From assembly GCA_002173095.1 (NCBI GenBank), contig NHBK01000014.1, forward strand, positions 62,001 through 126,000: DNA of 64,000 nucleotides, read 5' to 3'. The position numbers and the translations under genes are program-made. Within the stretch, counting starts at the first letter, position 1. Each line of letters opens with the position of its first letter. Source of the DNA: Hyphomonadaceae bacterium TMED5 (lineage in GTDB: Bacteria; Pseudomonadota; Alphaproteobacteria; Caulobacterales; Hyphomonadaceae). Positions 30,875-36,250 of the stretch are shown here, in pieces. The notes beneath the pieces were generated by a model. It had not been told where the DNA came from, did not search any database, and saw only the letters and a program-made list of their open reading frames with translations.

Positions 30875-30916
30875 CCCCCTAACCATCCTGCGATACCAAT
30901 TCCGCGAGATCACAAG

Positions 30917-30950
30917 ACAAAAAAAGAGCGCCCCAAAATGGAGCGCTCTT
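30917..30950 (-). terminator. Rho-independent terminator of the repeat-protein gene
   Basis: AAGAGCGC and GCGCTCTT form an 8-bp stem with an 11-base loop, followed on the minus strand by a long T run. Confidence 0.88.
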
Positions 30951-30974
30951 CTTTGATTTGGGTGTCGACCGGGC

Positions 30975-32387
30975 TTAGAAGCCGCCCGGTGCGCAGACGC
31001 AGCCGCCGCCAACATTCAGAACAACCTGGTTTGCACGGATCGTCTCGTACTGAACCGGAGCAGTAACCGTTTCGGTGACTGGGTTGTAGCGAACGACCTG
31101 GATCGGCTGAACGCGGGTTGTAACAACCGGCTGGATAACTTCGCGGTGTGTTACAGCGTTGAAGTAGGTTTCACGAACGTCCTGAACCGCAACTTCGTTG
31201 ACCTGTGGAATGTAGTTCACACGGGTTTGCGGGATGTTCGCTTCGATCACACGGCCCGGCAGAGTTTGTGTCTCATAACGGGTTGCCGCTGTTACTGTTT
31301 CAGAACGGCCACGGATCACCTGACGCTGAACCGGCTGGATAACCGTAACTTCAACCGGCTGGGTGATGTTGCGTGTTACGCGGTCAACATAAACGTCTTC
31401 GACTTCAACAACCGTACGGTCAGTGTATTGCGGAATAACGTTCTCACGAACCTGTGGACGCGCATCATATTCAACCTGACCCGGCAGAATTTCTTCATTG
31501 TACTGAACCGGAGCCGTTACGGTTTCGGTCTGAGCACGCAGGATACGGCGTTCGATAGGCTGAACGATTGTGCGCTCGATTGGCTGGATCACGTCACGCT
31601 GAGTAACAACGTCGATATATTCGTCGGTTACGTCTTCGCGAACGATCTCAGTGACGTCCATCGTGGTGTATTCGTTCACAACAGGCGGTGGCGCAGGGAT
31701 AACCTGAACTGGCGCTGTACGTGTTTCAAACTGTGCCGGAGCCGTTTCGTTTACAACAACCGGACGGTCAATGCGGCGCTGAACCGGAACAACTGTCGTG
31801 CGAACGATTGGCTGAATGATGTCACGCTGAGCAACAGCGTCTTCATAGCGCTCGGTCACTTCTTCACGGGTCTGGTAAGTGACCTGTGGGATGAATTCTT
31901 CTGTTACAGCTGGAACAGTATCCTCATCAACGATGACTGGAAGAACTTCTTCTTCATAGCGCGTTGCTTCGGTAACAGTTTCCGTACGGCCCTGAATGAC
32001 CTGACGGGTAACAGGCTGGATGAGCGTGCGCTCTACCGGCTGAATAATTTCGCGGTCGGTAACAGCGTCGATATACGTCTCGGTTTCTTCAACCTGCGTA
32101 CGTTCTGTCACGACTTCATTGACGTTTTCACAGCAGAGTTCGCTAGAGATCGCGATTTCGCTCTCAGCGCCCATATACTGAATGTCGACGTCATTTGGAT
32201 TGATTTGCGCGCTGGCTTCACCAGAGCGCGCGAGTAGATCCAGAATTTCCTGTTCGCTAAGAACACGAGCTTCTCCGGACATCGCAGTGTAATCTACGCC
32301 GCCAACGCCGCCGTCATTGCCGGCCCAAGCCGGGATAGCGGTCATAGCAAGCGTGCCTGCGATCATCAGACCATTTGCCAGTTTCAT
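30975..32387 (-). CDS. Exported protein built of five 75-76-residue Val/Gln/Pro-rich repeats
   Basis: A 470-residue protein from the ATG with AGGGGA upstream. Residues 1-22 form a signal peptide ending PAWA. Residues 23-95 are a unique acidic head containing a Cys-Cys pair (85-86). The remainder is five repeats whose core, such as IIQPVERTLIQPV, recurs at 114, 190, 266, 341 and 417, i.e. every 75-76 residues. Within each unit the order is Tyr-rich turn, (I/V)xQPVxRTxxQP, then GRTETVTxxTRYE and a LP... IPQV segment. The protein ends GGGCVCAPGGF, a second Cys pair. It is rich in Val, Thr, Glu, Arg and Gln and probably beta-structured. The valine-proline periodicity recalls cytoskeletal alveolin/articulin repeats in style only. 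It may be a surface or periplasmic fibre. The function is unknown. Confidence 0.85.
   Translation of the reverse strand: MKLANGLMIAGTLAMTAIPAWAGNDGGVGGVDYTAMSGEARVLSEQEILDLLARSGEASAQINPNDVDIQYMGAESEIAISSELCCENVNEVVTERTQVEETETYIDAVTDREIIQPVERTLIQPVTRQVIQGRTETVTEATRYEEEVLPVIVDEDTVPAVTEEFIPQVTYQTREEVTERYEDAVAQRDIIQPIVRTTVVPVQRRIDRPVVVNETAPAQFETRTAPVQVIPAPPPVVNEYTTMDVTEIVREDVTDEYIDVVTQRDVIQPIERTIVQPIERRILRAQTETVTAPVQYNEEILPGQVEYDARPQVRENVIPQYTDRTVVEVEDVYVDRVTRNITQPVEVTVIQPVQRQVIRGRSETVTAATRYETQTLPGRVIEANIPQTRVNYIPQVNEVAVQDVRETYFNAVTHREVIQPVVTTRVQPIQVVRYNPVTETVTAPVQYETIRANQVVLNVGGGCVCAPGGF
30978..32102 (-). repeat. Five tandem ~228-bp coding repeats in the exported protein gene
   Basis: Units cover residues 96-171, 172-247, 248-322, 323-398 and 399-470 of the protein. 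At the protein level the spacing is nearly invariant while the sequences have diverged. This indicates old duplications held to a fixed length, not a recent slippage array. Confidence 0.85.
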
Positions 32388-32835: not shown

Positions 32836-34431
32836 TTATGCAACTTCCACTTCTGCCGGTGCAGGTGACCGGATCAGGTGATCAAAGGCAGACAGCGCCG
32901 CTTTGGACCCTTCGCCCATCGCGATAACGATCTGCTTATATGGTACGGTCGTGCAATCACCGGCCGCCATAACACCTGGCACATTGGTTTCGCCCTTGGC
33001 GTTGACTTCAATCTCTCCACGCTCAGACAGCGCGACAGAGCCTTTCAGCCATTCCGTGTTCGGGACGAGACCGATCTGCACGAAGATGCCTTCCAGATCT
33101 ATTGTGATCTCTTCGTCCGTCGTGCGGTCTTTGCACACAAGGCCTGTAACCTTCGCACCATCACCAACGACTTCCGTCGTCTGAGTGTTCAGCAGCACTT
33201 TAACATTAGGCAGGCTACGCAGCTTGTTCTGAAGAACAGCATCCGCACGCATTTCCGGCATGAACTCGATCAGAGTAACCTCGGCGACAATACCAGCCAG
33301 GTCGATCGCGGCCTCAACACCAGAGTTACCACCGCCGATTACCGCAACGCGCTTACCTTTAAAGAGTGGGCCGTCACAGTGCGGGCAGTACGCGACGCCT
33401 TTATTGGCATACTCGTTTTCACCCGGAACGTTCATCTTCCTCCAGCGAGCACCAGTGGACAGAATGACGGAGCGAGATTTCACAGTCGCACCATTTTCCA
33501 GTTCAACTTCGATAAGGCCGCCAACGTCCTTCGCAGGGGTCAGCTTTTTGGCCTTCTGCAGATCCATAATGTCGACGCCGTTTTCTTTGACGTGATTTTC
33601 CAGAGCAGCGCCAAGCTTCGGACCTTCCGTATAAGGCACAGAGATGAAGTTCTCGATACCCATCGTGTCCATGACCTGACCGCCAAAGCGCTCAGCTATG
33701 ACGCCCGTCTTAATACCTTTGCGCGCCGCATAGATTGCAGAGGCAGCTCCTGCAGGGCCGCCACCGACGACGAGCACATCAAACGCATCTTTCCTGCCGA
33801 TTTTCTCAGCTTCACGCTTGCTTGCACCTGTGTCGATTTTTGCGAGCAATTCCTTCAGATCCATACGGCCAGAGCCGAATGCTTGTCCGTTCAGAAGAAC
33901 CGTAGGCACAGCCATAACCTCGCGACGCTCCATCTCTTCTTTGAAGAGCGCACCGTCAATAGAAGTGTGACGGATGTTCGGATTCAGCACGGCGAGCATG
34001 TTCAACGCCTGAACCACGTCCGGACAGTTATGGCAGCTCAGAGAGAAGAAGGTCGTGAATTCCTGCACTTCGTCAAACTCAAGTGCCTGAATCTGAGCTT
34101 TCATCTCATCATCAATCTTAGGCGGGTGACCACCGACATGCAGCAGGCCCAGCACCAGAGATGTGAATTCGTGGCCCAGCGGAAGACCGCCGAAGGTCAC
34201 GCGCGTCTCTGGTTCTGAAGAGCGCACAATATCAAAACTTGGCACCCATTCGCGCTGACTATCAGCCACAAGGTTCATGGAGACCATGGAAGACTGTTCA
34301 ACGATGTCTTCCAACAGCTCTACCATTTCAGCAGATTTAGGGCTGTCATTTGTATAGGCCACCAGCTCAATCGGCGTACGCAGATTTTGCAGATAGGTCT
34401 TCAGTTGGGTCTTCATTCCAGCATCGAGCAT
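32836..34431 (-). CDS. ahpF: Alkyl hydroperoxide reductase subunit F
   Basis: Flavoenzyme that passes electrons from NADH to AhpC for peroxide reduction in the cytoplasm. It has an N-terminal double thioredoxin-like domain with the SCHNCPD CxxC (Cys133, Cys136). This is followed by an FAD-binding [10 protein letters not shown] motif (about 223-232), the NAD-binding [10 protein letters not shown] and the thioredoxin-reductase-type active site CPHC (Cys349, Cys352). The length of 531 residues is normal. It lies 160 bases downstream of ahpC on the same strand, with a strong intercistronic stem-loop between them. Confidence 0.97.
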
Positions 34432-34537
34432 TGTGGAACTCCTTAAGTTAGAAGAGCCGAAACCCCGTAAGGTCGTCTCAAAAATTCATTGTCCATTGGC
34501 CAGAGATACAGCCTCTTGGCGGGCCGCATTTCAGGCC

Positions 34538-34575
34538 AATGGCAGCTGGCGCGCGATATACGCGCCAGCGCCATT
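34538..34575. other. Intercistronic stem-loop between ahpC and ahpF
   Basis: AATGGCAGCTGGCGCG and CGCGCCAGCGCCATT pair over 15 bp with one bulged base and a 7-base loop (CGATATA). There is no T run, so it is unlikely to be a complete terminator. Placed 17 bases past the ahpC stop, it could protect or cleave the message so that ahpC is made in excess of ahpF. Confidence 0.65.
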
Positions 34576-34591
34576 GAGGGAAGAAAATCGC

Positions 34592-35155
34592 TTAGATTTT
34601 GCCGACGAGGTCGAGGGAAGGAGCAAGCGTTGTTTCGCCTTCTTCCCATTTCGCTGGGCAAACTTCGCCTGGGTTCGCACGAACGTACTGAGCAGCTTTC
34701 GTCTTGCGGAGAAGCTCAGAAGCGTTACGGCCAACGCCTTCAGACGTGATTTCCATGAACTGGATGATGCCGTCTGGGTCGACGAGGAAAGTTGCGCGGT
34801 CAGCAAGACCAACGCCTGGACGCATAACTTCGAAGTTGTTCGTGATCGTGCCAGACTGGTCACCGAGCATAGCGTACTGGATTTTGCCAATAGCTGGTGA
34901 AGAGTCGTGCCAAGCTTTGTGAGAGAAGTGCGTGTCTGTAGAAACAGAGTAGATCTCAACGCCGAGCTTCTGGAAATCGCCATACAGGTTAGCGAGGTCT
35001 TCGAGTTCTGTCGGGCAAACGAATGTGAAGTCAGCCGGGTAGAAGAAGAAGATCGCCCATTTGCCTTTTACGTCGGAGTCAGAAACTTCGATGAACTCAC
35101 CGTTTTTAAAAGCGGTGGCTTTGAATGGTTTGATCTCAGTATTGATAAGCGCCAT
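34592..35155 (-). CDS. ahpC: Alkyl hydroperoxide reductase subunit C (typical 2-Cys peroxiredoxin)
   Basis: Peroxiredoxin that reduces H2O2, organic hydroperoxides and peroxynitrite. The peroxidatic cysteine is Cys47 in FTFVCPTE and the resolving one is Cys166 in EVCPAKW, as in the enterobacterial enzyme. The helix after Cys166 and the C-terminal YF-less tail ending LVGKI suggest the robust type rather than the hyperoxidation-sensitive one. It is the first gene of the ahpC-ahpF operon and divergent from oxyR by 186 bases. Confidence 0.97.
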
Positions 35156-35235
35156 TTTTGATCCCTTTCATGAATGGTCTTTCTCAATATGCGGATTTCA
35201 TCGCAGAAAACAAATTTATAATTTTTATAATTATG

Positions 35236-35272
35236 ATAGATTTGTTTTATTGAAACATGGTTAGTTAGACCA
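35236..35272. promoter_or_regulatory. Candidate OxyR operator between ahpC and oxyR
   Basis: Two dyads whose centres lie 22 bp apart: ATAG-N7-TTAT (35236-35250), one mismatch from an OxyR half-operator (ATAG-N7-CTAT), and TGGT-N7-ACCA (35258-35272). The spacing matches the tetrameric OxyR footprint of four half-sites. The site is in the shared regulatory region, 80-115 bases before the ahpC ATG. Confidence 0.45.
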
Positions 35273-35341
35273 ATATGTCCTTAAGCGGCGCACCTGTGCG
35301 CGCTCATTTCTTTCAATATGTTTTTGCGATAGATTTTTTCT

Positions 35342-36250
35342 ATGAATTTGCCTTCACTCAGACAGCTCCAGTTTCTTGACGCACTCGCGCGGGAGAAATC
35401 CTTTTCCAGGGCGGCGGAAAGCATGCACGTCACCCAGCCAACGCTTTCAACTGCAATACGCGAACTGGAAGGTCTGCTTGGCGTCCAACTGGTTGAACGT
35501 GAAGCCCGCGGTGCAACGCTCACGGCGACCGGCAATGAGGTGGTAACACGCGCACGCGCTCTGCTGTCTGATGCCGAAGATCTGGTTCTGGCCGCGCGCG
35601 GCGCAGGCGAACCCCTGTTCGGCACATTCCGGCTCGGCGCAATTCCTACAATCGCGCCCTTTATTCTGCCGCGTGTGATGAAGCATCTGAAAGCTCATTA
35701 TCCAGACCTCACACTGTATCTGCGCGAAGATCAGACCGCGCGCCTGCTGGAAGATTTGCGCGCGCGTCGCCTTGATGCAGCGCTCATCGCTCTACCCTAT
35801 GAAGCGTCAGGCATTGAGTCCGTCACCGTGTTTGAAGACGAATTCCTGCTGGCCGCACCGAAGGGCCACCCGCTTGGAAAAGAAGGCCGTTTACAGCCGG
35901 AGGACCTTGCCCCACACGATGTGCTTCTTCTGGAGGATGGTCACTGTCTTCGCGACCATGCTTTGTCGGTCTGCCAAATGCCGACCGTCCGCGAAGGCGG
36001 AGAAGTCAGCGCAACCAGCCTCCACACCCTCATTCAAATGGTAGATGGCGGTCTCGGCGTGTCTCTGATCCCGAAAATTGCCGCCGATTCCGGCCTCGGC
36101 AAAGGACTGGATGTTTCCATCCGTCCATTCTCTCCACCCGCAATTGGCCGGTCGATTGGCGTTGCATGGCGATCTGGCTCATCACGTGAGTCTGATGCCC
36201 GGATTGTTGCGGAAGAGTTGAAAAAGATTTTCAGCGAGCCGGCCGCCTGA
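35342..36250 (+). CDS. oxyR: Hydrogen-peroxide sensor/regulator OxyR (LysR family)
   Basis: An N-terminal winged HTH (residues 1-60, FSRAAESMHVTQPTLSTAIR) and a LysR substrate domain. The redox pair is Cys202 and Cys211 in GHCLRDHALSVC, nine residues apart as in E. coli OxyR (Cys199/Cys208), which supports true OxyR rather than another LysR member. It diverges from ahpC-ahpF, its expected target. The last 20 bases overlap the 3' end of a small membrane protein gene on the other strand. Confidence 0.95.
   Translation: MNLPSLRQLQFLDALAREKSFSRAAESMHVTQPTLSTAIRELEGLLGVQLVEREARGATLTATGNEVVTRARALLSDAEDLVLAARGAGEPLFGTFRLGAIPTIAPFILPRVMKHLKAHYPDLTLYLREDQTARLLEDLRARRLDAALIALPYEASGIESVTVFEDEFLLAAPKGHPLGKEGRLQPEDLAPHDVLLLEDGHCLRDHALSVCQMPTVREGGEVSATSLHTLIQMVDGGLGVSLIPKIAADSGLGKGLDVSIRPFSPPAIGRSIGVAWRSGSSRESDARIVAEELKKIFSEPAA

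Follow-up and report, generated by a model that had tools for sequence, protein, structure and literature searches.

The window, a stretch of 64,000 nucleotides, comes from a marine member of the genus Ponticaulis (Hyphomonadaceae) and carries on its reverse strand a gene for a repeat protein of 470 residues. A predicted Sec signal peptide and a short N-terminal region precede an array of five repeat units, which is bounded by a cysteine motif on each side; apart from the signal peptide, neither Pfam nor the alignment of homologues reveals a recognisable domain. The features of the locus are as follows.

30975–32387, reverse strand: gene for the predicted exported repeat protein (ATG at 32387, 470 residues plus stop; stop codon at 30975–30977).
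32322–32387, reverse strand: predicted Sec signal peptide, residues 1–22 (MKLANGLMIAGTLAMTAIPAWA, followed by GND), lipobox absent; read from the sequence.
32136–32321, reverse strand: N-terminal region, residues 23–84, with a conserved short helix (RVLSEQEILDLLARSG); from the alignment, with the helix predicted by AlphaFold2 (AF2) at residues 45–54.
32130–32135, reverse strand: Cys85-Cys86 pair before the array; kept in all 28 distinct members.
31002–32129, reverse strand: repeat array, residues 87–462, five units, about 47 octads of the V-I-Q-P-V-E-R-T type; from self-similarity and AF2.
30993–31001, reverse strand: Cys463-Val-Cys465 after the array; kept in all 28 distinct members.
30916–30958, reverse strand: terminator-like hairpin with T run (AGAGCGCTCC..GGGGCGCTCTTTTTTT), just 3' of the repeat gene; read from the sequence.
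32836–36250: ahpF, ahpC and a divergent oxyR-like gene beside the repeat gene.

The signal peptide ends in an AxA-type motif that most homologues share in the alignment. It would direct the protein into Sec export, in keeping with the exported protein of the preliminary description of this DNA, and it argues for a location beyond the inner membrane rather than on its submembranous cytoplasmic side. The cysteines, at residues 85, 86, 463 and 465 and nowhere else, lie where that description had put them: Cys-Cys before the array and Cys-Val-Cys after it. The hairpin and T run suggest a single-gene transcript; G+C-rich inverted repeats with T runs are also found 3' of the genes in loci L017, L021, L024 and L026.

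The cores of the five units fall at residues 114, 190, 266, 341 and 417, spaced by 76, 76, 75 and 76 residues. This array, already described from the letters alone, stands far above chance: comparison of the protein with itself gives peaks at lags 76, 227 and 303, with mean BLOSUM62 scores of 0.91, 1.53 and 1.00, and 200 shuffles never exceed 0.61 at any lag. The units are only 25–47% identical to one another, so the array is old and shows no recent duplication. Within it we find a second, shorter period that adds to the preliminary description: a sub-repeat of eight residues, of the V-I-Q-P-V-E-R-T type. Its z-scores are 6.7 (lag 8) and 5.0 (lag 16); lag 12, the periodicity of alveolins, gives only 1.0.

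The array is composed of 26.9% valine plus isoleucine, 25.8% charged residues, 13.0% threonine and 5.1% alanine; lysine is absent (0%), leucine (1.6%) and serine (0.3%) nearly so. Acid-base dyads, an excess of which marks epiplastin and articulin ABD domains (PMC6212826), number 17, against 11.7 (SD 3.0) in shuffles, and 68 of 1000 shuffles reach 17. An antisense frame of 363 codons (31146–32237, forward strand) lies open over the gene, and a matching one runs through the entire 381-codon array in most relatives. We rejected it as a gene: it is a by-product of the scarcity of leucine and serine, whose TTA, CTA and TCA codons read as stops in antisense. Gene calling that simply takes the longest ORF may miss the real gene beneath such a frame.

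Both cysteine motifs are present in all 28 distinct homologues, of which 27 were counted without selecting on the motif and one, L053, separately; they are kept while the aligned sequences drop to about 50% identity. The middle residue of CxC varies among relatives (CIC, CPC, CNC, CDC, CGC, CTC and CYC), and a single extra cysteine, in L052, is the only one in the mature homologues beyond CC and CxC. The distance from CC to CxC is just as constant: 381 residues in 26 of the 28, 382 in one, and 305, exactly 76 fewer, in another. The residue inserted in the 382-residue member adjoins CxC, leaving the length inside the array unchanged in all five-unit members, and the 75-residue step is conserved across homologues as well. 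The short one, L053 (genome G097), is a natural four-unit variant in the order R1-R4-R2-R5 with both cysteine caps, unless the assembly is in error there; if it is not, one gene has undergone both loss and reordering of units. It is the sole change of repeat number seen in these sequences, and it spans a whole unit. With length constant or off by exactly one unit, the units appear as modular blocks of fixed length.

When the window protein is compared with five five-unit relatives from other genera, 22 of the 25 comparisons match a unit best with its positional counterpart; the other three, a tie and two exceptions, concern R2 or R3. In the array, dN/dS ranges from 0.03 to 0.23. Fixed lengths, positional matches and low dN/dS together indicate that the register is under selection, which bears out the earlier reading of diverged sequences held to one length by a structural register. 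The preliminary description had also named in advance what would speak against a fibre: homologues without the cysteines and with varying repeat spacing, or a match to a known enzyme family. All homologues keep the motifs, the unit length is constant and no enzyme family was found, so the idea survives.

The closest named relatives are in Ponticaulis koreensis (84% identity) and in Henriciella species (52–53%). A family profile matches 28 of 105 Hyphomonadaceae genomes: all seven from the genus of the window, 19 among at least 29 from the genus containing Henriciella, and a single genome from each of two further genera. The Henriciella-containing genus also includes at least 10 relatives without the gene, which is therefore not a general envelope component. 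A profile of the unit gave no further matches in 385 genomes of the class and nothing credible beyond Hyphomonadaceae in 348 genomes of the order; two long-frame matches outside the family Hyphomonadaceae read as peptidase-like and beta-lactamase-like genes, and most other weak ones are short frames with stops. No relatives were found on plasmids or viral contigs.

Sequence searches of Pfam, NCBIfam, PHROGs and the PDB returned no credible family match, in line with the initial impression of an unfamiliar family. We discarded two apparent hits as composition artefacts of the charge-rich array: WH_DRP (4 of 14 members, best 3.3e-6; 16.1 bits in the window protein against a cut-off of 27) and AceK (7 of 14 members, best 0.0057). 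Titles and abstracts of the Ponticaulis literature held nothing informative for the protein. Within the reach of these searches, the family is unnamed, unannotated and restricted to the Hyphomonadaceae lineage.

The codon adaptation index (CAI) was computed against the genome's own ribosomal-protein genes. The repeat gene reaches 0.73, equal to the ribosomal genes and second of 47 genes in the window, behind the peroxiredoxin gene ahpC (0.77). The same protein written in background codons would be expected at 0.54, and the maximum in 1000 draws was 0.605. The Henriciella-containing genus shows the same in two genomes, with a CAI of 0.785 (second of 41) in one and of 0.728 (against 0.577 expected) in the other. 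Codon adaptation at the ribosomal level suggests, indirectly, an abundant, bulk protein; it is also compatible with an abundant periplasmic protein that does not polymerise. Unannotated, lineage-restricted and, to judge by its codon usage, among the cell's more abundant proteins, it is probably a visible but still unnamed component of the envelope.

We predicted the full-length structure with AlphaFold2 from 14 input sequences. The model contains five strands of 53–59 residues, one per unit, connected by short strands and turns; the array has no helix, and pLDDT lies between 70 and 86 over most of it. The long strands and the helix-free array would suit a fibre, the guess of the preliminary description; the overall confidence of the model is low (pTM 0.30). 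A two-unit fragment was predicted unpaired and structureless (pLDDT 55). Taken together, the low pTM and the structureless fragment mean that the fold may be a reflex of AF2 to a V/T-rich sequence. As a lead only, a need for more than two units or for partners would recall the alveolin domains, for which AlphaFold-Multimer predicts disorder in the single chain and a twisted beta-ribbon once a partner is present (PMC12465100).

We propose, at about even probability, that the gene encodes an abundant exported structural protein of beta-strands, which assembles into fibres or sheets and whose oxidised terminal cysteines link or cap them. After Sec export and removal of the signal peptide, the V/T/P/charged octads would make up very long beta-strands, each taking about 54 of the 76 residues of a unit. 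Within one molecule or between several, these strands would pair to give an extended ribbon, fibre or sheet that lies in the periplasm or on the cell surface. Outside the cytoplasm, the cysteine motifs at both ends of the array would become oxidised and thereby fix the ends; in the simplest form, molecules would be linked end to end or side to side through them. The gene and the selection on it, the register of the repeats, the conserved cysteine motifs and the codon signature are observed, and the export signal is read from the sequence; strand pairing, assembly, disulfides and location are what we infer here. As to the preliminary description, its observations are confirmed and its interpretation is supported in part.

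The array could instead be a disordered elastic spacer like titin PEVK, an entropic chain of set contour length whose cysteine ends serve only for attachment, to partners or between themselves. Proline recurs about every eight residues in part of each unit, charge is high and bulky hydrophobics other than V and I are few, all of which would suit such a chain, as would the unpaired two-unit fragment and the low pTM of the whole. However, disorder needs no residue-exact unit, and the five-unit arrays are invariant inside, with one member off by a whole unit; the strands that AF2 gives the full protein, at moderate confidence, also argue against it. We consider the spacer unlikely.

Still less probable is a giant beta-solenoid or an intertwined multimeric beta-prism, a stiff adhesin or needle in which the cysteines staple the ends of one molecule or trimer. 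Octad repeats are known from spikes of the phage T4 gp5 type, and the period of the array is likewise eight. The weak Foldseek matches of the model are mostly parallel beta-helices (FapC, CsgA, SufB/D, pectate lyases), yet all have E > 0.1 and TM of 0.02–0.08 by query length. The fold search of the PDB gave no match at E ≤ 0.001 (best E = 0.12, TM 0.03), and hence no solved beta-solenoid of the kind expected for a functional amyloid or adhesin. The VxGxxxxx glycine pattern is absent, the unit of 76 residues amounts to 9.5 octads and not to a whole number, and phage relatives were not found.

The neighbourhood bears on a third alternative, a redox or metal protein in which CC and CxC would serve to bind metal or to buffer oxidants. 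In Ponticaulis, the gene follows ahpC-ahpF, with the oxyR-like gene also near, and this linkage to peroxide genes is conserved in loci L017–L019 and L021. It is not conserved in Henriciella, where the gene lies between rplS and leuC and the listed neighbourhood holds no redox gene. In addition, 377 residues without a further cysteine separate the two motifs, and the fixed array of 380 residues would be left without explanation. A redox or metal role thus seems very unlikely.

The contents of the rplS-leuC interval vary among Henriciella and its relatives (L024, L135, L136): it holds the repeat gene, a methyltransferase-like gene (G040) or four other ORFs (G089), and looks like a variable insertion site. 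A homologue hidden there in G040, which lacks the gene, was sought and dismissed, the methyltransferase-like gene occupying its place. Since the gene has its own terminator and its neighbours differ between the two genera, it has no dedicated operon partner; together with the G040 locus, this marks a gene that stands by itself and that a genome either has in full or lacks altogether. Comparison of neighbours revealed no partner for secretion, anchoring or assembly.

Among known systems, the assembling beta-strand protein that we favour may first be set beside the G5-E repeat fibrils of staphylococcal SasG, long thin beta fibres built of proline- and charge-rich modules of about 78 residues with little hydrophobic core. 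SasG differs in being anchored to the cell wall and in having no cysteine caps, and G5, a Pfam family, is absent from the Pfam matches of the repeat protein. Euplotes plateins, likened by description only, share V/P-rich repeats and an export-type (ER) signal peptide and form plates inside alveoli, according to the account cited in PMC4303705; in contrast, they are eukaryotic and their repeats have 12 residues.

A closer parallel is with alveolins. In Plasmodium IMC1a, the core of V/P and charged residues has a cysteine motif on either side, and the protein becomes less stable without these motifs (PMC5223771). Such terminal motifs flanking the repeat core, found in a subset of apicomplexan alveolins, are what all 28 distinct members of our family possess, although the alveolin pattern of single plus double cysteine (PMC5223771) is unlike CC/CxC in detail. 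In contrast to the repeat protein as we read it, alveolins are cytoplasmic (PMC5223771), have repeats of 12 residues (PMC4303705) and carry the IMCp domain, and their cysteines are probably palmitoylated rather than disulfide-bonded (PMC5223771). IMCp (Pfam PF12314) has no match at E ≤ 1 in 14 family members, nor any in the window's own genome.

Epiplastin and articulin ABDs are defined by localisation in a submembranous skeleton, by long beta-strands without helix, which the AF2 model contains at moderate confidence, and by a composition of about 33% V+I (SD 7), 35% charged residues (SD 6), 9% K, 1% A and 3% T (SD 2) (PMC6212826). The array lies within one SD for V+I (26.9%) and is off for charged residues (25.8%), lysine (0%), alanine (5.1%) and threonine (13.0%).

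Nearer in lineage, articulin-like proteins are reported from Caulobacter (PMC4303705, PMC6212826), and the IMCp profile does recover Caulobacter proteins above its cut-off (L090–L106). Like ours, they are alphaproteobacterial, with a signal peptide (ending ADG), a V/P/charge array and, in most, CxC and CC. In L092, L093, L097, L098 and L102–L106, CxC (CDC/CGC) directly follows the array, and most of these also end in CC. A second type in the same genus (L090, L091, L096) has a proline-rich stretch after the array with several C-x3-C pairs; L090 and L091 end in CSGCGG. Cysteine motifs are not mentioned in the available excerpts of the Caulobacter articulin-like literature. These proteins differ from the repeat protein in array length, which is variable, in their mixed periods (strongest lags 4, 8, 10, 12, 18 or 22), in their lysine, VPV/VYV modules and long G/S/Y-rich tail, and in the order of the cysteine motifs. 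In hhalign, homology to the Caulobacter family found no support: the unit profile scored 0.1% probability, and the 19% of the whole protein came solely from aligning the signal peptides.

That the protein is a true bacterial alveolin or articulin, by descent or transfer, is thus already largely refuted and most improbable: for all the likeness in style of V/P/charge beta repeats between terminal cysteine motifs (PMC5223771, PMC6212826) and the IMCp matches in Caulobacter, IMCp is found in 0 of 14 members, the profiles do not align beyond the signal peptide, the period is 8 and not 12, lysine is absent and threonine abundant, and the protein is predicted to be exported. Where the preliminary description saw a resemblance in style to alveolins and articulins and claimed no homology, it holds on both counts, and the architecture is a close parallel all the same. 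IMCp, the 12-residue period, composition and profile comparison all fail; the protein would work like alveolins, articulins and the Caulobacter articulin-like proteins, with a common descent unsupported by these tests.

A broader reading, which we offer as a speculation, is that some Hyphomonadaceae, and separately Caulobacter, export a bulk network of beta-ribbons that is locked by disulfides through terminal CC/CxC motifs and supports the envelope from beyond the cytoplasm, in convergence with alveolins. If true, these bacteria would have evolved, in exported form, an equivalent of the membrane skeleton of protists, with disulfides where alveolins use lipid anchors. The predicted export signal, residue-exact beta repeats and conserved cysteine caps make the protein a candidate self-assembling, oxidation-locked biomaterial, open to direct testing in a marine strain that poses no hazard, such as Ponticaulis koreensis. 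With the Caulobacter proteins beside it, it can help to show whether skeleton proteins in the 'alveolin style' have arisen more than once.
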